From: Shewanella sp. Arc9-LZ | Lineage (GTDB): Bacteria; Pseudomonadota; Gammaproteobacteria; Enterobacterales; Shewanellaceae | NCBI RefSeq assembly: GCF_010092445.1 | Contig: NZ_CP048031.1 | Location: 4,030,001-4,094,000 of the forward strand | Direction: 5' to 3' | Length of the DNA stretch: 64,000 nt | Part shown: one piece after another, positions 21,862 through 28,784 of the stretch | Layout: each line of letters begins with the position of its first letter | Position numbering within the stretch: position 1 is the stretch's first letter | Position numbers and translations under genes: made by a program | The notes under the pieces: model-generated | Databases searched by the model: none | Seen by the model: the letters and a program-made list of their open reading frames with translations, nothing else | Told to the model about the DNA's origin: nothing

Positions 21862-21890
21862 TGGACATATTATGTCGTGAATGGTATATC
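21862..21890 (+). promoter_or_regulatory. Shared palindrome over the putative promoter of the yjf-like cluster
   Basis: GACATATTATGTC (21864-21876) is palindromic around one base. It overlaps a plausible -35 (TGGACA, 21862-21867), 17 nt before TATATC (21885-21890). The same palindrome with the same -35 overlap recurs at 25650-25665, before the fourth gene of the cluster. It is also close enough to glnE, in the other direction, to affect it. Confidence 0.6.
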
Positions 21891-21993
21891 TATCAGCCAG
21901 TCAAATGATCAGATTAATATCATTGACACTAAGATTACTATAACCTGTGTCATATTGAATTAGCACATGAAAAATCTACATTTTGGAGAAAAC

Positions 21994-22956
21994 ATGGTAG
22001 GTCACCTCCCACGTGTACTCACATTGATAACGGTATTGTTTGTTGCCTTAACCCTTGGCGGTTGCGGTGACGATAGACCGGAACAAATTGCTAAGTACCA
22101 GCAACTGACCCAACAACGACTTGATCTGTTGGCCAGTTCGCTCAATAACAATCAGTTACGCAATGCGACGTTACTCAAACAATACACTCGAGTTCTCGCT
22201 CAGCGTCAATCCGACTTAACCCCATTACTAGAAGAATTGGCTAAAGATGCCAGCACTGAAGGGCCAATGTTTAAGTCATTAACGCGTCGTTACAAAGACT
22301 TAAACGACAGCGCTAATTTTATTGATTTAGACCAACAGTTAGCTGAAGCACAGAATATTTATCAAGCCGCTGACACCAGTTTGTATAACGATATGCTGTC
22401 TGATCCAGTCAATGTTGTTGCCGATATGTCTAAAGGGCAACTCGCTCGAGTTAATGCTATTAGCCGTGAGGCTGAAGCCCTAGCAAATGGCACCGAAGGC
22501 AGTGGTGCAGGCAGCCAACTTGTGGGTAATCCTGCATATGGTAGCTGGCAAAATAATTCAAGCGGCACCTCCATTTGGGCTTGGTATGGCATGTATGCGA
22601 TGTTTTCTAACTTCTCCCGCCCAATAGGCTACGGTAGTTGGTCGGGTAACCGTGGTTACAGCTATTATAATGATGTGGGACGTTACCGTTACACTTCACC
22701 AAAACAAGCAACTTCGCAAACCAAAACCTTTGAACAAACCAAGAAACGTTTTAACAGCCAAGGGAAACGATTCGACAGCCCTTATGCAAAAGCTCGAACA
22801 GGCTCTACTAGCTTGTCACGTCAAAGTACCAGTGCACCCAAAGCTAATAGCACCACTCAGAGCGCGAGTAGAAAATTTCGTTCGAGCTACTCAAAAGACA
22901 GCAGTTTCCGTAACTCAAGCAGCCGCACTAGTCGCGGTGTTAGCCGTGGAAAATAG
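21994..22956 (+). CDS. Lipoprotein with low-complexity Ser/Arg tail, first gene of yjf-like cluster
   Basis: 320 residues from ATG 21994, chosen because TGGAG stands 6 nt before it, while the upstream ATG at 21967 has no ribosome site. The signal peptide ends in the lipobox LGGC with Cys24. Residues ~30-160 are helical and Gln-rich. Residues ~180-225 are Gly/Tyr/Trp-rich (WAWYGMYAMF, YGSWSGNRGYSYY). The last ~90 are Ser/Arg/Lys-rich, ending SRGVSRGK. The next amino acid after Cys is Gly, so outer-membrane sorting is likely. I recognise no family. E. coli YjfM in the related yjf operon also ends in a Ser/Gly/Arg-rich tail, so a similar role is possible. The DUF350 gene follows after 13 bases. 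Confidence 0.8.
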   Translation: MVGHLPRVLTLITVLFVALTLGGCGDDRPEQIAKYQQLTQQRLDLLASSLNNNQLRNATLLKQYTRVLAQRQSDLTPLLEELAKDASTEGPMFKSLTRRYKDLNDSANFIDLDQQLAEAQNIYQAADTSLYNDMLSDPVNVVADMSKGQLARVNAISREAEALANGTEGSGAGSQLVGNPAYGSWQNNSSGTSIWAWYGMYAMFSNFSRPIGYGSWSGNRGYSYYNDVGRYRYTSPKQATSQTKTFEQTKKRFNSQGKRFDSPYAKARTGSTSLSRQSTSAPKANSTTQSASRKFRSSYSKDSSFRNSSSRTSRGVSRGK

Positions 22957-22969
22957 GTAAGGACTCACC

Positions 22970-23869
22970 ATGACATTTTTTCAAGAATATGGCTTAACTC
23001 AACATTTGGCGATTATTTTAGCCATTGATTTAACCATCGCTATCATTTTGCTGACGCTAATGCGTTATTTGCAGGGGTGGAGCGTTAAAGTCAACAGCAG
23101 TGCAGAGTTAGCCGAGCGCGACAACTTTGCCTTTGGGATCAGTACCGCTGGTGCTGTGGCGGCTTTAGGTATTGTGCTAACTGGCGCTATCACAGGCGAA
23201 GCGGCTCCGTCTTATTTAACTGAAGCGATTGGCATGTCGGCATACGGCTTGTTTGGCTTAATACTGATTAAATTAGGCCGTTTTTTACATGATAAAATCG
23301 CCTTAAATGAATTTGCTAAAAACGATGAGATTCTTAAAGGTAATATTTCTGTTGCTGTGGTTGATGCTGCTGCAGCCATAGCCACTGCCATTATTATCCG
23401 CGCGGTATTAATGTGGGCTGAAGATATTACTCTAGATACCTTTATCGCTATTTTTAGTGCCTTTTTAATCTCACAACTGATGTTAGTCATACTCACCCGA
23501 CTACGTGAAAAGCGTTATGCCAAACGTAATCAAGGCGCGTCAATGCAACAAGCGTTAACTCAGGGCCAAACGGCATTAGCACTGCGTCACAGCGGCTACA
23601 TGATTGCCATGGCACTAAGCTTTAATGCGGCGAGTCATTTTATTGCTTATGACCCAACAGCCCATGTAAGCAACATTATTGGTTGGTGCGCATTCTCATT
23701 GATCATGCTGGTGGTATTATCGTTATTAATAACCATAGTGAAAAAAATGGTGTTAGCCGGTATCAATCTTGCTGAAGAAGTTGAGAAACAACAAAACATC
23801 GGTATTGCAGCCGTTGAAATGGCGATTAGTATTGCCGTTGCCCTTATTCTCACGGCGTTAATGGCTTAA
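22970..23869 (+). CDS. Double DUF350 inner-membrane protein (YjfL-like)
   Basis: 299 residues with about eight membrane helices in two similar halves of four (roughly 10-145 and 155-299). Each half has the DUF350 pattern of a first helix pair, an acidic/polar loop and Gly/Ala-rich helices (FGISTAGAVAALGIVLTGAI and SGYMIAMALSFNAASHF). E. coli YjfL is a single four-helix copy, so this is a fused duplicate. DUF350 proteins have no proven function but occur beside PspA and polyamine genes. The SD GTAAGGA precedes the ATG, and the next gene starts 3 bases after the stop. Confidence 0.85.
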   Translation: MTFFQEYGLTQHLAIILAIDLTIAIILLTLMRYLQGWSVKVNSSAELAERDNFAFGISTAGAVAALGIVLTGAITGEAAPSYLTEAIGMSAYGLFGLILIKLGRFLHDKIALNEFAKNDEILKGNISVAVVDAAAAIATAIIIRAVLMWAEDITLDTFIAIFSAFLISQLMLVILTRLREKRYAKRNQGASMQQALTQGQTALALRHSGYMIAMALSFNAASHFIAYDPTAHVSNIIGWCAFSLIMLVVLSLLITIVKKMVLAGINLAEEVEKQQNIGIAAVEMAISIAVALILTALMA

Positions 23870-23872
23870 TCT

Positions 23873-25633
23873 ATGACAACACCTTTGCTCGATGATCTTC
23901 CCGCTAACACTACACAGGGGGACTCGCAGCAAAGTTCCCCTCCATCCCGTCAAGTATCATGGTTTGATGATGCCTTGTTACTCGGCATTATGGCCTCGTT
24001 GGCGGGATGCGGTCTTATTTATGAATACTTATTATCACACTATGCTGGTCGCATTCTCGGCGCATTAGAAGCCGCCATTTACACCATGATTGGTCTAATG
24101 ATTGTGTCCATGGGTGTGGGCGCTTTTGCCGCACGTAAAATAAAATGCGCTTTTACTGGCTTTGCCATGCTTGAATTAACCGTAGCACTGTGTGGCTCTT
24201 TTGCCATTATCATTACCGCAGCGGTCATCGGATTCGGTCAACAACTGCCGTTAACCATCGCCAATACACTCGGCCTACCGCCAGATCATTTACCCAATGG
24301 TGGCTTTATTGCCAGTTTGCAAACTCTCAGTGCATATTTACCGTATGTTTGGGGTGTATTACTCGGGTTAATGATTGGCATGGAAATTCCACTTATTGCC
24401 CGCGTTCGACAATCATTGTCTGAAGCGCACTTACTGCATAATGCCGGCACCATATATGGTGCCGATTACATTGGCGCTGGAATAGGCGCCGCAATCTGGG
24501 TCGGTTTTATGCTGGCCATTGATATTCAATTAGCTGCTGCGCTTACAGCGAGCGTTAACCTACTCGCTGGACTGGTGTTTATTTGGCGTTTTTGGTCAAA
24601 AATAAATCATGTAAAATTGCTGCTTATCGGCCATATTATTGCCAGTGTGGTGATTGGCATATTAGCCGTTAAAGGCCCGAGCTGGGAACAGCATTTTAAT
24701 AATCTTTTGTATAAAGATCATGTGGTTTATGCCAAAGCGACCCGCTTTCAGCAGCTCAATTTTACTAAGCGTTTGCGCGGTGGTGGTTTACCTCCCGTTT
24801 ATAATTTATACATCAATGGTCGGTTACAATTTTCAAGCAGCGACGAGCACATCTATCATAGCTTTTTGGTTCATCCAACATTGGCTGCCAGCGCACGGCA
24901 CGATAACGTGCTCATTATTGGTGGTGGTGATGGCTTAGGACTAAAGCAAGTACTCAAATGGCAACCTAAAGCGGTTACCTTAATGGATTTAGATAAAGAC
25001 TTACTGGCACTGTTTAAATCGCCACCAGCAGATATGCCACAACGCTTACAGGATGCATTACTGGCGTTAAACGGCGATGCGTTAAACGATCCACGCTTAA
25101 CATTAATGGTCGACGATGCATTTAACGGGGTTGATAAGCTAATTCAAAATGGCAAAATGTTTGATGCCATTATTGTTGACTTACCCGACCCAAGTCATCC
25201 TGATTTAAACAAACTGTATTCAGACTTATTTTATCGTAAGCTTAATGAATTACTTAGCGCCGATGGCGTAATAACGGTGCAATCAACCTCACCTTATCAT
25301 GCGCCAAAAGCGTTTATATCGGTTGGTAAAACACTGACTGCTGCAGGGTTTAATGTAAAACAGTATCACCATAATGTCCCTAGCTTTGGTGAATGGGGTT
25401 GGAGCATTGGCAGTAAAATGGGTAAAAACCCACAACAACGTCTTGCTGCACTAACAGATATACCGGTACCAGAAGAATGGCTAACCCCAGGACTTATTCA
25501 CGCTTCATTTGAATTCCCAAAGAATTTCTATGCCGATATAGACAACATCAAAGTAAACGAAATTGGTTCATTACAGCTGTATTACTACCACTTAGCGGCT
25601 TGGTCAGAAAATGAAGTAATTAATCTTTTTTAA
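23873..25633 (+). CDS. Membrane-fused spermidine synthase-like aminopropyltransferase
   Basis: 586 residues. The N-terminal ~265 residues hold about seven membrane helices. Residues ~280-560 are an aminopropyltransferase domain of the SpeE type: substrate segment YINGRLQFSSSDEHIYHSFLVHP, nucleotide loop GGGDGLG (350-356), acidic DLDKD, and DLPDPSHPD where SpeE has its catalytic Asp. The soluble enzyme uses decarboxylated SAM and putrescine; the substrate here is unknown. Fusion to a membrane domain suggests action at the inner membrane. No speD is adjacent. It is tightly packed after the DUF350 gene. A perfect inverted repeat and a promoter follow it, marking the boundary of the first transcription unit. 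Confidence 0.88.
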   Translation: MTTPLLDDLPANTTQGDSQQSSPPSRQVSWFDDALLLGIMASLAGCGLIYEYLLSHYAGRILGALEAAIYTMIGLMIVSMGVGAFAARKIKCAFTGFAMLELTVALCGSFAIIITAAVIGFGQQLPLTIANTLGLPPDHLPNGGFIASLQTLSAYLPYVWGVLLGLMIGMEIPLIARVRQSLSEAHLLHNAGTIYGADYIGAGIGAAIWVGFMLAIDIQLAAALTASVNLLAGLVFIWRFWSKINHVKLLLIGHIIASVVIGILAVKGPSWEQHFNNLLYKDHVVYAKATRFQQLNFTKRLRGGGLPPVYNLYINGRLQFSSSDEHIYHSFLVHPTLAASARHDNVLIIGGGDGLGLKQVLKWQPKAVTLMDLDKDLLALFKSPPADMPQRLQDALLALNGDALNDPRLTLMVDDAFNGVDKLIQNGKMFDAIIVDLPDPSHPDLNKLYSDLFYRKLNELLSADGVITVQSTSPYHAPKAFISVGKTLTAAGFNVKQYHHNVPSFGEWGWSIGSKMGKNPQQRLAALTDIPVPEEWLTPGLIHASFEFPKNFYADIDNIKVNEIGSLQLYYYHLAAWSENEVINLF

Positions 25634-25649
25634 TTGGACCAGATAGCGC

Positions 25650-25700
25650 TTGACATATTATGTCTAGATGCTATCTTTACTCACAGACATAATATGTCAA
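25650..25700 (+). promoter_or_regulatory. Promoter and two operator palindromes before the DUF2170-PspA genes
   Basis: TTGACATATTATGTCT (25650-25665) and AGACATAATATGTCAA (25685-25700) form a perfect 16-bp inverted repeat 19 nt apart, and each arm is itself a palindrome (GACATAnTATGTC). TTGACA (25650-25655) and TATCTT (25672-25677) fit a sigma70 promoter with a 16-nt spacer. One palindrome overlaps the -35 and the other lies at the expected start site, a layout typical of repression. Confidence 0.7.
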
Positions 25701-25712
25701 TTAAGGACGAAT

Positions 25713-26126
25713 ATGAACATCCATACCATTGCAGGTCACCTAAACGGACTATGCGATCACAGCAAAACCGGTTTTCAGTTTGATTGTTATCCGATTGACG
25801 GTGATGTTGAAGTGTTACAAGTCAATATTGTCGGCCGAGAAGAAATTCCGGTGTTTGTATCAGTAACTGACAACCAAATATTGTGTATCAGTTACTTATG
25901 GGGCGAAAACGAAGTAAACCAAGCTCGCCGCGCTGAAATGTTCGAGACCATGTTAGAGCTCAACATTCCAATGCCATTATCATCGTTTGCTAAAATTGAT
26001 GATAAATATGTGGTTTACGGGGCATTATCTGTGCAATCAAGCATGGAAGAAATTGAACAAGAATTAGCAGTACTGTCAGACAACTGTCTGGAAGTCATCG
26101 ACGAACTCGTCGAATTTTTAATCTAA
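25713..26126 (+). CDS. DUF2170 protein (YjfI-like)
   Basis: 137 residues from ATG 25713, which has AAGGA five bases before it. The ATG at 25668 lies within the promoter and is rejected. The protein is small and acidic without signal peptide. Segments FDCYPIDGDVEVLQVNIVGREEIPVFVSVTDNQILCISYLW and LELNIPMPLSSFAKIDDKYVVYGAL match the DUF2170 family, of which E. coli YjfI is a member. The function is unknown; it always seems tied to PspA-like partners. The PspA gene follows 10 bases later. Confidence 0.8.
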   Translation: MNIHTIAGHLNGLCDHSKTGFQFDCYPIDGDVEVLQVNIVGREEIPVFVSVTDNQILCISYLWGENEVNQARRAEMFETMLELNIPMPLSSFAKIDDKYVVYGALSVQSSMEEIEQELAVLSDNCLEVIDELVEFLI

Positions 26127-26136
26127 GGAGCCAATT

Positions 26137-26826
26137 ATGGGCATTCTAAACAAGATTCTTACAGCGTTTCGTGGTGGTGCAACTGAAGTTGGCCAAAATA
26201 TCGTTGACTCAAACTCAACCCGAATTTTTGAACAAGAGATTCGTGATGCAGAAAAGCATTTAACCCGAGCTAAACGTGAATTAACTGATGTTATGGCTAA
26301 AGAAATGCAAGCCAGTCGTGAAATTGATCGCCTAAAGCGTAGTGTTGTTGAGCACGAAGGTTATGTCACCCAAGCGCTAGAGAAAGGCAATGAAGCTTTA
26401 GCAATTGAAATAGCTGAAAAGATTGCTCAGCTAGACGAAGAATTAGCTGAACAACAAACAGCCAATGATAGCTTTAGCTCACATGCAGTGCGTTTAAAAG
26501 ATTTAGTGAAGAAGACTGAGCGTCAGTTAAATGATTATCAACGTCAACTTACTATGGTTAAAACCACTGAAAGCGTGCAAAAAGCCACTGCAACTATCAC
26601 TGACTCATTTGCGTCAAGTAATTCAAAACTGCTTAACGCTAAAGATTCACTAGAGCGCATCAAAGCACGTCAACAACAGTTTGATGACCGCTTAAAAGCG
26701 TCAGAAACATTAGCTGAAGAGAATAGCGATAAGTCATTACATGCCAAGCTAGCTGAAGCAGGTATTGGTGAGCAAAAGTCGAATGCTAATGCTGTGCTAG
26801 ATCGCATTAAAGCACGTAAAGGTTAA
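26137..26826 (+). CDS. PspA/IM30-family membrane-stress protein (YjfJ-like)
   Basis: 229 residues, nearly all alpha-helical and coiled coil, with charged heptads throughout (EQEIRDAEKHLTRAKRELTDVMAKEMQASREIDRL). The short N-terminal helix MGILNKILTAFRGGATEVG is amphipathic, as needed for membrane binding. PspA proteins form ESCRT-III-like rods that stabilise damaged inner membrane and sometimes inhibit PspF. No pspF, pspB or pspC is nearby, so this belongs to the yjf type rather than the classical psp operon. It is flanked by DUF2170 and DUF2491 genes, the same order as E. coli yjfI-yjfJ-yjfK. Confidence 0.92.
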   Translation: MGILNKILTAFRGGATEVGQNIVDSNSTRIFEQEIRDAEKHLTRAKRELTDVMAKEMQASREIDRLKRSVVEHEGYVTQALEKGNEALAIEIAEKIAQLDEELAEQQTANDSFSSHAVRLKDLVKKTERQLNDYQRQLTMVKTTESVQKATATITDSFASSNSKLLNAKDSLERIKARQQQFDDRLKASETLAEENSDKSLHAKLAEAGIGEQKSNANAVLDRIKARKG

Positions 26827-26832
26827 GCTATT

Positions 26833-27486
26833 ATGGGATTTCTTAGTGGCCTATTCGGCAAAAAAGAAGCCCCGAAGCGTAAGCTTGACCATCCAAATAA
26901 ACTGCTCAAGGGTGATATGATCACCTTTGATGACAGTTTTGCTTTGCCTACGCAATTGCGCGGGCAACAGCTTAAGGTTGAAGCTATTCATACTTATGAA
27001 TACCAACGCTCGCAGCTTTGTGAATTCTTATTACGTGGCCATAGCGGCACCGCAATCTATTTATCCTACGTGCAAGAAGACGAATCTTACTTAAGTATTT
27101 CAATCAAAATCAACCGCGCTGTGGTTGAACAATTGTTTGAGCTTGACGCATTTGCTGAAATATTTGAAGAACCAGGCAAAGCAACGCTGACATTGCAGGC
27201 ACTTCCTGCCGAGTTAGCCGCTGAGTTCGATAAATGGCTCAGTGATGAATATCATCAAGTTGAATTTGCCGGTTTTGGTTACTTCCATCGTCAAGATTAT
27301 CGCGACCTAAAGCCTCCTCAAAATGACGATGATGCTCGCGGTGAAGGTTTTGAAGGTTACAGTTTGGCTAATGCTGATGACTCTCACGCGGTTGATATTG
27401 AAGTTTACGAAAGTGGAGACACTGAAGTGATGTTGACTTTATATCGCCCACTGACCGATATTAGAGAGTATTGGCCAGCAAGCTGA
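26833..27486 (+). CDS. DUF2491 protein (YjfK-like)
   Basis: 217 residues, soluble and acidic. It begins MGFLSGLFGKKEAPKRK, a short amphipathic helix with a basic patch much like the PspA N-terminus, which may bind membrane. The body (LKGDMITFDDSFALPTQLRGQQLKVEAIHTYEY... through VMLTLYRPLTDIREYWPAS) fits DUF2491, the YjfK family. Function unknown. It starts 6 bases after the pspA stop, so it is cotranscribed and probably made in a fixed ratio with PspA. Confidence 0.8.
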   Translation: MGFLSGLFGKKEAPKRKLDHPNKLLKGDMITFDDSFALPTQLRGQQLKVEAIHTYEYQRSQLCEFLLRGHSGTAIYLSYVQEDESYLSISIKINRAVVEQLFELDAFAEIFEEPGKATLTLQALPAELAAEFDKWLSDEYHQVEFAGFGYFHRQDYRDLKPPQNDDDARGEGFEGYSLANADDSHAVDIEVYESGDTEVMLTLYRPLTDIREYWPAS

Positions 27487-27509
27487 TACAGGTAGGAGAC
27501 GATTTTCTA

Positions 27510-27845
27510 ATGAGTTCAGGCAAACCGTTACCAGAGAAATGGCTTAAAAACCAACAAGCTGCAAAAGCAACCCAAGTGGCTTTTGATCTGGATGAGAAGT
27601 TTCAATACTCAATCCGAAAAGAAGCCTTAGATAAAGGCGTCAGTCCTTCAGACCAAATCAGGACCATACTTGGACTCTCTGTATCCAAACGTCCAAAGCG
27701 TCCTCGCTTAACTGTGTCATTAAATGCTGAAGATTATGTGATTTTAGCGCAGAAATACGGCTTAGAATCTGAGTCGCAGCTGGAAATCAAAAAGCGCGTA
27801 TTAGATGATTTGGTCCACTTCGTTGATACTAAATCGTCAAAATAA
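27510..27845 (+). CDS. Small protein resembling two ribbon-helix-helix modules
   Basis: 111 residues from ATG 27510, with GGAG 11 nt upstream. A TTG at 27471 overlapping the previous gene is possible but less likely. I do not recognise the family. Two internally similar units are visible: TQVAFDLDEKFQYSIRKEAL followed by a second helix ending IRTILGL (~20-55), and RLTVSLNAEDYVILAQKYGL followed by a helix ending LDDLVHF (~64-105). Each is a beta strand with alternating polar residues and then two helices, as in RHH DNA-binding proteins. A basic linker (KRPKRPR) joins them. It closes the yjf-like unit and could bind the palindromes upstream. This function is inferred only. Confidence 0.6.
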   Translation: MSSGKPLPEKWLKNQQAAKATQVAFDLDEKFQYSIRKEALDKGVSPSDQIRTILGLSVSKRPKRPRLTVSLNAEDYVILAQKYGLESESQLEIKKRVLDDLVHFVDTKSSK

Positions 27846-27879: not shown

Positions 27880-27914
27880 AACGCACCAGACACTTGTCTT
27901 GTGCGTTTTTTGTT
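27880..27914 (+). terminator. Intrinsic terminator closing the yjf-like unit
   Basis: AACGCAC-C-AGACA and TGTCT-T-GTGCGTT pair around a short loop and are followed by a T run. It separates the cluster from the K+ channel gene. Confidence 0.85.
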
Positions 27915-27974: not shown

Positions 27975-28784
27975 ATGCTCGAATCTAAACGTTGGTCGGT
28001 CAAAAATGTCGATGGCCCAAGTCCATTCGAACTCGCAATGATGGTGTTATCACTGATCTCTGTGGTGATAGTACTCACGATTACCTTTGGTAAGTTAGAC
28101 GCTGAAACCAACAAAGTACTGCTGTATATAGACACTACAATCTGCATGATTTTTATGACCAAGTTTTTCCATGGTTTGTTCAAAGCACGTAATAAAGCCT
28201 TTTACTTTAGGCACCATTGGATAGACTTTGTTGCCAGCATTCCAGCCATTGAAGCACTGCGTATCGCACGTATATTCCAAATATTAAGAGTTATTCGTTT
28301 AATCCGCATGAGCCGGTCATTATTAATCCCATTATTGCGTCAGCGAAAACAATCTACATTGGCCAGTTTACTGGTGGCGATGGTATTAATTTTAGCCACT
28401 GCATCTGTACTTATTTTACTAGTAGAAAGCACTGAACCTAACGCCAATATCCAAACAGCAGAGCAAGCTATTTGGTGGGCATTAGTGACCATATCAACCG
28501 TCGGTTACGGTGACTTCTATCCCGTCAGTACGGTAGGCCATATCATCGGTGGATTAGTGATCATTAGTGGTGTCAGCTTTTTCGGAGTGATATCCGGTTA
28601 TATGGCATCTGTTTTCGTCGCACCAGATGAGCAAGAACGTAACGAAGCGCAAGAGGCTCAAGCAGCGCATAAAGCAGAAATCAATACCAAGCTAGAACAA
28701 GCGCTAGAGCGCATGGAGCACAATCAGCAGCAAATGATCGAAGAAATTGCCACCTTACGTAATCAACTCGGACAAGGTAAATAG
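27975..28784 (+). CDS. Voltage-gated potassium channel (Kv-like, Kch family)
   Basis: 269 residues with six membrane helices. The S4 voltage sensor is a row of arginines (RIARIFQILRVIRLIRMSR, ~96-114), the pore has the K+ filter TVGYGD at 175-180, and the last ~55 residues form a cytoplasmic coiled coil rich in Gln and Glu (LEQALERMEHNQQQMIEEI) that would assemble the tetramer. There is no RCK domain. The gene is separated from the yjf-like unit by a terminator, so it has its own promoter. PspA-type clusters elsewhere are often accompanied by ion channels, so proximity may still matter. Confidence 0.9.
   Translation: MLESKRWSVKNVDGPSPFELAMMVLSLISVVIVLTITFGKLDAETNKVLLYIDTTICMIFMTKFFHGLFKARNKAFYFRHHWIDFVASIPAIEALRIARIFQILRVIRLIRMSRSLLIPLLRQRKQSTLASLLVAMVLILATASVLILLVESTEPNANIQTAEQAIWWALVTISTVGYGDFYPVSTVGHIIGGLVIISGVSFFGVISGYMASVFVAPDEQERNEAQEAQAAHKAEINTKLEQALERMEHNQQQMIEEIATLRNQLGQGK

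Follow-up and report, generated by a model that had tools for sequence, protein, structure and literature searches.

A palindrome shared by the promoters of a PspA-centered gene cluster in Shewanella and by distal membrane-stress genes points to a regulon under a cluster-encoded candidate repressor

PspA proteins are widespread, and little is settled about what turns on the numerous nonclassical PspA operons. In Escherichia coli, the yjfIJKL(M)C set comprises a DUF2170-PspA dyad, DUF350, DUF2491, and an ATP-grasp ligase. We describe a seven-gene cluster in a 64-kb stretch of DNA from Shewanella sp. Arc9-LZ (contig NZ_CP048031.1; the whole stretch is termed the window) that shares the DUF2170-PspA dyad and DUF350 with the yjf set but possesses a DUF4178-like gene in place of DUF2491 and genes for an aminopropyltransferase-like enzyme, a lipoprotein, and a 111-amino-acid (aa) protein labeled ribbon-helix-helix (RHH) in place of the ATP-grasp ligase. 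Like the classical PspF-pspABC system of E. coli, the cluster is centered on PspA; unlike it, control is proposed to lie with a small DNA-binding protein encoded alongside PspA, which would act at sigma-70-like promoters and on a regulon extending beyond psp. If a short palindrome found at the cluster’s promoters is the operator of the RHH protein, one short DNA word would predict membrane-stress targets in many related gammaproteobacteria, offer clues to the function of DUF2170, DUF4178, DUF350, and NfeD/SPFH, and perhaps add a control logic for PspA-based repair beside PspF/sigma-54 and two-component systems.

The gene set itself is already known. The available text of Ravi et al. (2024; PMC11237479) describes a group 2 CesT/Tir-PspA operon composed of a lipoprotein, an eight-transmembrane (8TM) DUF350 protein, a 7TM-spermidine synthase, DUF2170, PspA, DUF4178, and sometimes a final RHH gene (example accessions AAN56744.1 to AAN56747.1), and proposes a link between membrane dynamics and polyamine sensing or aminopropylation. 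The cluster contains this gene set, with DUF4178 recognized by way of family members, and the statement in an earlier sequence-only reading of this DNA that no function was on record for the whole set is superseded by that proposal. The RHH gene, present “in some cases” according to the same text (PMC11237479), was found here in 115 of 117 genomes of the genus. No operator or regulon is mentioned in the available part of that paper (PMC11237479), and neither the palindromic operator nor its regulon was found in print within the open-access literature. The palindrome and the proposed genome-wide regulon, both missed by the sequence-only reading, are what the present analysis adds. The Pseudomonas aeruginosa bacABCDEF operon also has a DUF2170 protein (BacA) and a PspA-type protein (BacB), and there DUF2170 acts negatively on the operon: without BacA, the other Bac proteins rise 6.1- to 13.5-fold (7.2- to 13.5-fold for BacB to BacD), which was read as negative control (PMC10948618). 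It differs from the Shewanella cluster in that a sigma-54 site is proposed and an RHH protein is not mentioned in the available text (PMC10948618).

The exact palindrome, GACATAWTATGTC, occurs in three copies in the window (at 21864, 25652, and 25686), solely at the cluster’s two promoters. Upstream of the DUF2170 gene, putative operator O1 (GACATATTATGTC, 25652 to 25664) takes in four of the six −35 bases of the core promoter predicted at 25650 to 25677 (+ strand), TTGACA-16-TATCTT, whose −10 is extended by a preceding TGc. Putative operator O2 (GACATAATATGTC, 25686 to 25698) lies 34 bp from O1, just downstream of the expected transcription start. The third copy, an exact match and likewise a putative operator (GACATATTATGTC, 21864 to 21876), is located at the lipoprotein promoter, where a −35-like TGGACA (21862 to 21867) overlaps the palindrome and an extended −10-like TGgTATATC follows (21882 to 21890). 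No strand is assigned to the three operator copies, and at both promoters the palindrome holds most of the predicted −35. The operon that carries the RHH gene has, as a feature of its sequence, a short palindrome at its own promoter.

This arrangement is conserved among the named loci, which are the best 80 of 163 loci retrieved using the RHH protein alone. The genes found stand in the same order in all 80, and all eight genes, counting a K+ channel gene downstream, are present in 74. A TT dinucleotide and both palindromes precede DUF2170 in 80/80 loci, with exactly two exact copies in each and a spacing of 34 bp in 63. The consensus of 63 loci (21-bp spacer) reads TT-GACATATTATGTC...gTGcTATCTTTaa.c.CA-GACATAATATGTC, in which the −35 TTGACA straddles the beginning of the first copy, a 16-bp gap leads to the extended −10, and the other copy begins at about the predicted transcription start. 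A third copy precedes the lipoprotein gene within the distance limit in 72 of the 77 lipoprotein-bearing loci and outside the limit in two more; TC or TG precedes that site in 65 of the 74 loci with at least three sites, and TGnTATA is present there only as the majority consensus of those 74. Since the core promoter, although the best-scoring of 19 sigma-70-like sites in 7.5 kb, belongs to a count with no excess over the 17.8 expected by chance, support for an internal promoter comes from its conservation. The internal promoter and two transcription units proposed earlier are thus upheld in the form of two likely starts. The outcome that would have refuted the sequence-only reading, separate regulation of each gene and co-occurrence in few genomes, did not arise, the same palindrome being found at both promoters. 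The predicted DUF2170-PspA promoter is sigma-70-like and not of the sigma-54 −24/−12 type, no systematic sigma-54 scan having been made there.

The distribution of the palindrome follows that of the RHH gene. The source genome has eight exact palindromes and no copy of a reversed control pattern. It also has eight single-mismatch sites, four of them intergenic and four overlapping a called open reading frame (ORF), three of the latter at the 5′ end. Sites were present in 116 of 117 Shewanella genomes, as against 3/117 for the reversed pattern, and every one of the 115 genomes with the RHH gene had 4 to 10 exact sites. G062 (99% complete), the only near-complete genome of the genus without the RHH gene, has no site; G101 (52% complete) has two sites and no RHH match. 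In an order-wide sample of 295 genomes, a site was present in 82, RHH in 91, and DUF2170 in 126. Outside one family, designated f11, at least one site was present in 68 of the 69 RHH-positive genomes and at least two in 64; among the 204 RHH-negative genomes, the corresponding numbers were 13 and 2, and the reversed pattern was found in 5/295. DUF2170 is present in all 91 RHH-positive genomes. RHH-negative genomes that retain DUF2170 had a site in 3/35 cases, one of which (G222, four sites) is an 88% complete assembly of ∼600 contigs, and those lacking both genes had a site in 10/169 cases and two sites in one. None of the 15 inspected DUF2170 loci of RHH-negative genomes had a palindrome within 400 bp of DUF2170. 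Because genomes with DUF2170 and no RHH rarely carry sites, and none near DUF2170 in the loci inspected, the palindrome tracks the RHH gene and not DUF2170 itself. The association of RHH with the site (Fisher p ∼1e-53, not corrected for kinship) is overstated by that value because related genomes are not independent; a better argument is the spread over multiple families together with the drift seen in f11, where both operators are in place with a changed core (TTGACATATAATGNC then GACATWWAATGTC) in 11/11 loci inspected. Twenty representative RHH neighborhoods, including one (L137) truncated upstream, contained DUF2170 in 19 cases, PspA in 17, a DUF4178-like gene in 14, and the transferase gene in 9.

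Beyond the cluster, the other exact sites of the source genome are located before htpX, before nfeD and two SPFH genes, before a gene for a 112-aa membrane protein, and in the interval separating an M28 peptidase gene from that of a small protein. The survey of distal targets covered part of the genomes and, within these, the sites listed; for it, 80 regions were retrieved from 25 genomes. In the 12 Shewanella genomes for which all distal sites were retrieved (the source genome and 11 with full site lists), the htpX and nfeD sites were each found in 12/12, followed by sites at a two-transmembrane (2TM) protein gene (5), AIM24 (4), the 112-aa protein gene (4), and the M28 pair (1). A site preceded htpX in all 30 drawn Shewanella genomes, some of them common to the 12. 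Outside the genus, an htpX site preceded by CTTGA at a distance of exactly 19 bp was found in 11 of 12 genomes of families f12, f15, and f25, the exception being G191; none of the five sites listed for G190 of f12 matched htpX or nfeD. The nfeD site recurred in 3/4 f12 genomes and in 3/5 f6 genomes, 96 to 345 bp upstream of the longest ORF in f6. Among the f6 genomes with distal sites retrieved, a site preceded NhaA in 4/5 and an operon encoding a small secreted protein, PspA, and PspC in 5/5; the two f6 PspA proteins checked both exceed the TIGR02977 (phage shock protein PspA) cutoff. In f12, a site was located by an M16 peptidase gene in 4/4 genomes retrieved.

On this comparative evidence, we consider it probable that the RHH protein represses a membrane-stress regulon from within a PspA-centered cluster that would thereby carry its own transcription switch. 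In the unstressed cell, the RHH protein would occupy the palindrome GACAT-WWW-ATGTC and repress both promoters of its own cluster. In Shewanella, it would also repress htpX, which encodes a membrane protease, and nfeD-SPFH; in other lineages, the genes for NhaA and an M16 protease would be among its targets, and the classical pspA-pspC operon would come under it as a further level of control. Repression would be lifted by membrane damage, probably through a change of state of PspA and its partner DUF2170 at the membrane that alters the repressor. PspA and its partners would then stabilize the membrane, HtpX and NfeD/SPFH would deal with membrane proteins and domains that had suffered damage, and a substrate would be modified by the lipoprotein-DUF350-transferase module. 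The sequences themselves show the conserved gene order, the exact palindromes at conserved positions, their phyletic tie to RHH, the identity of the targets in the genomes examined, and the overlap with predicted promoter elements; we infer from these that the RHH protein binds the palindrome, whether it represses or activates, what the signal is, and how DUF2170/PspA connect to the RHH protein. That PspA and DUF2170 probably set the signal, by feedback on the repressor, is suggested by their co-occurrence with RHH (DUF2170 in 19/20 neighborhoods, PspA in 17/20) and by the rise of Bac proteins in the absence of BacA. The fuller proposal, in which a PspA-operon repressor released by PspA-DUF2170 upon membrane damage would command HtpX, NfeD/SPFH, and NhaA across families and gate the classical psp operon in one lineage, is more tentative, with a somewhat less than even chance of being correct.

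Several observations weigh against repression of such a regulon by the RHH protein. In G062, where only RHH and the transferase were searched and not PspA or DUF2170, the transferase is absent too (just a 34% SpeE-like match); because it was lost there as well, this genome does not single out RHH. The exact 13-mer is missing in 21 of the 22 RHH-positive genomes of f11 (one of the 22 has a site). The relaxed pattern GACATWWWATGTC finds one or two sites in all 22 but is present in 150/295 genomes overall, with many hits to the reversed control; because of this visible background, the f11 case rests on position and not on presence. Two RHH-positive f6 genomes (G300 and G346) have just two exact sites each, both at the core promoter. 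A relaxed palindrome (GACATATGATGTC) lies upstream of rpoH in the source genome (L006:3821), and relaxed sites were present there in just 4/30 genus genomes, so rpoH was rejected as a conserved member of the regulon. As for the protein, none of 17 members matched a Pfam family above the cutoff, the single NikA-like match scoring 0.015, and a sequence search yielded no PDB match. The geometry of two target promoters, described below, likewise counts against it.

The positions of the sites suggest repression at the cluster and at htpX because they overlap predicted −35 or −10 elements; at htpX, the predicted −10 is located inside the palindrome (TTGAAT-16-TATTAT). At nfeD, 14/15 loci have the site centered at about −40 relative to an extended −10-like element, a position that would suit an activator too. 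The f6 psp promoters retain sigma-54-like elements (TGGCAC-N5-TTG) that start 71 to 74 bp past the palindrome at 6/6 sites, as against 1/916 site-by-strand cases elsewhere with such an element at 60 to 100 bp. This fixed spacing suggests that the arrangement is functional; it is about the usual enhancer distance for sigma-54 promoters, at which the RHH protein could help or hinder. The persistence of these elements led us to discard the idea that RHH replaces PspF in f6. The nfeD and psp geometries are therefore ambiguous, do not force repression, and leave a dual role possible. It is conceivable, though unlikely, that the RHH protein binds the palindrome mainly as an activator or dual regulator, with repression of its own cluster, activation of nfeD, and assistance or gating at psp; the fixed distances at nfeD and psp are what such a regulator might display, but the sites at the core, lipoprotein, and htpX promoters cover the predicted −35, the predicted −10, or the earliest bases of the transcript, and a classical activator bound there would obstruct RNA polymerase.

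Repression of a membrane-stress regulon by the RHH protein is also to be set against the function proposed by the sequence-only reading, namely, modification of the membrane or cell surface by polyamine transfer, switched on by envelope stress. The part of that proposal describing a conserved set of genes connected with PspA and with envelope stress stands, whereas its polyamine chemistry fares poorly. The transferase scores 651.7 bits against NCBIfam PRK03612 (cutoff, 472), the palindrome stands at the promoter of its module, and Ravi et al. also propose sensing of polyamines or aminopropylation (PMC11237479, available text). Class 1 S-adenosylmethionine (AdoMet) decarboxylase (PF02675), however, had no match in 60 Shewanella genomes, the source genome included, with 8/14 control genomes, E. 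coli among them, giving a match; class 2 (PF01536) was not searched. S. oneidensis reportedly has putrescine alone (PMC12283126, available text). Furthermore, the lipoprotein-DUF350-transferase module is optional: the transferase, present in only 9 of the 20 representative RHH neighborhoods, is missing from 3/4 f7 representatives, 2/2 f11 representatives, and the single representative of f12. The PF02675 and putrescine results (PMC12283126) led us to set aside polyamine biosynthesis as the principal function, the polyamine reading of the cluster is weak, and we judge polyamine transfer under envelope stress an improbable account of the system.

Whether the RHH protein is the reader of the palindrome bears on both the repressor and the dual-regulator proposals. 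The label comes from some UniRef names and from Ravi et al., and the window protein (27510 to 27845, + strand), best read from the ATG at 27510 with TTG 27471 as an alternative start, is 98% identical to its counterpart in S. frigidimarina KCTC 23109. Two strand-helix-helix repeats were discerned by eye, and a tandem RHH was rejected when profile comparison of the halves returned a probability of 7%. Given how weakly sequence supports the fold, and with binding by RHH itself putative, another DNA-binding protein, encoded elsewhere and co-inherited, might bind the palindrome and leave RHH a bystander or with a different target. We consider this quite unlikely: RHH is the sole putative DNA-binding protein among the cluster genes, the operator pair stands at the operon that carries it, and the sites follow it across numerous families, with none close to DUF2170 in the RHH-negative genomes inspected. 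AdoMet is the corepressor of MetJ, a repressor of the RHH class. A MetJ-like role for the cluster’s RHH protein as a sensor of AdoMet or of a related nucleoside that the transferase produces or consumes, and not of membrane stress, is an analogy prompted by the AdoMet-type enzyme in the operon and the least likely of the alternatives, as RHH persists in operons without the transferase and the genes that recur as targets encode membrane proteases, NfeD, PspA, and NhaA and do not belong to AdoMet metabolism.

All seven ORFs of the cluster were confirmed by an ORF and sequence check of the window, on the + strand and in the order given by the sequence-only reading. The Pfam and NCBIfam matches and the lipobox bear out its labels for the first five genes. 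The lipoprotein gene (21994 to 22956) belongs to the optional module and is present in 77/80 named loci; its product shows an LGGC lipobox and has no Pfam match above the cutoff that would place it in the Ctha_1186 type of the group 2 operon, and a second in-frame ATG lies upstream of its start, at 21967. The remainder of the module consists of the duplicated DUF350 membrane protein gene (22970 to 23869; PF03994 in two stretches) and the gene for a membrane-fused aminopropyltransferase-like enzyme (23873 to 25633; PF01564, Spermine_synth, 3.6e-32), given as 7TM by Ravi et al. (PMC11237479, available text). DUF2170, of the YjfI/BacA family (25713 to 26126; PF09938, 2.6e-37), is described in the literature as CesT/Tir chaperone-like and is followed by a PspA/IM30 family gene (26137 to 26826; PF04012, 1.1e-40), of the YjfJ type by context. 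The sixth gene (26833 to 27486) encodes a 217-aa protein that had been labeled DUF2491 and equated with yjfK. In a Pfam scan, neither the window protein nor any of 12 family members matched DUF2491, and the label was dropped; DUF4178 matched 6 of the 12 (best, 3.2e-5), with the window’s own protein below the cutoff (0.023), and Ravi et al. likewise name the family DUF4178 (PMC11237479, available text). Of the proposed equation with the yjf genes, the DUF2170-PspA and DUF350 parts hold, as does the absence of YjfC at the locus: neither the ATP-grasp YjfC nor DUF1190 was among the 10 neighboring proteins scanned, the rest of the genome not being searched. In two other families, f15 (G130, L135:7444-8010) and f25 (G140, L139:8318-8941), a 188- to 207-aa protein, coiled-coil-like by eye, lies between DUF2170 and RHH; these proteins had no tblastn match to the window PspA, and the f15 protein also had no Pfam match.

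Downstream of the RHH gene, an intrinsic-terminator-like hairpin (27880 to 27912, + strand; −15.1 kcal/mol, z −4.1, then T6) precedes a K+ channel gene (27975 to 28784, + strand; Ion_trans in Pfam) that has no palindrome of its own. The channel gene is the conserved next gene, found downstream of RHH in 76/80 named loci. The hairpin and its T-run are strong in the window, but a hairpin of at least −8 kcal/mol strength was present in only 19 of the 76 loci with the channel, and a strictly separate unit was therefore rejected; co-transcription with the cluster may be common across loci, and the channel gene is possibly part of a wider system. The channel also directly follows RHH in distant families (L135, L138, and L149), beginning in L135 one base past the RHH stop, and its position parallels the K+ channel of the third PspA group of Ravi et al.

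Other genes follow RHH elsewhere. A rhomboid protease gene does so in L148 and L137, and YqiJ-like and flotillin-like genes do so in L142, L148, and L137. The latter labels were made by eye and are weak: the FloT model scored 0.0035 in L142 and 0.0002 in L137, and YqiJ_N scored 0.02 in L142, all far below the cutoff, and the L148 pair matched no FloT or YqiJ-type model. If the labels are true, regulon members of one lineage would be operon members in another.

Several features of the distal sites were observed in passing. In the classical psp operon of f6 (L192, L197, L199, L203, and L206), the first gene encodes the small secreted protein, of ∼100 aa, and a 112- to 116-aa membrane protein follows PspC. 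In Shewanella, a 173- to 194-aa protein whose N terminus shows, by eye, two membrane stretches is encoded behind the palindrome in 5 of the 12 genomes (L155, L160, L170, L175, and L182); the one member scanned, from L175, matched no Pfam family. The gap between the M28 peptidase gene and a divergent 112-aa protein gene in the source genome contains an exact palindrome pair 29 bp apart (L003:5609-5650), close to which a third, degenerate copy was discerned by eye; the pair is absent from the other 11 genomes, and this divergent gene pair with two sites was not retained as a recurrent target. In the source genome, an exact palindrome also lies upstream of the first of two adjoining genes for small membrane proteins of 112 and 105 aa (L001:4652-5618), the second of which is weakly FxsA-like, below the cutoff.

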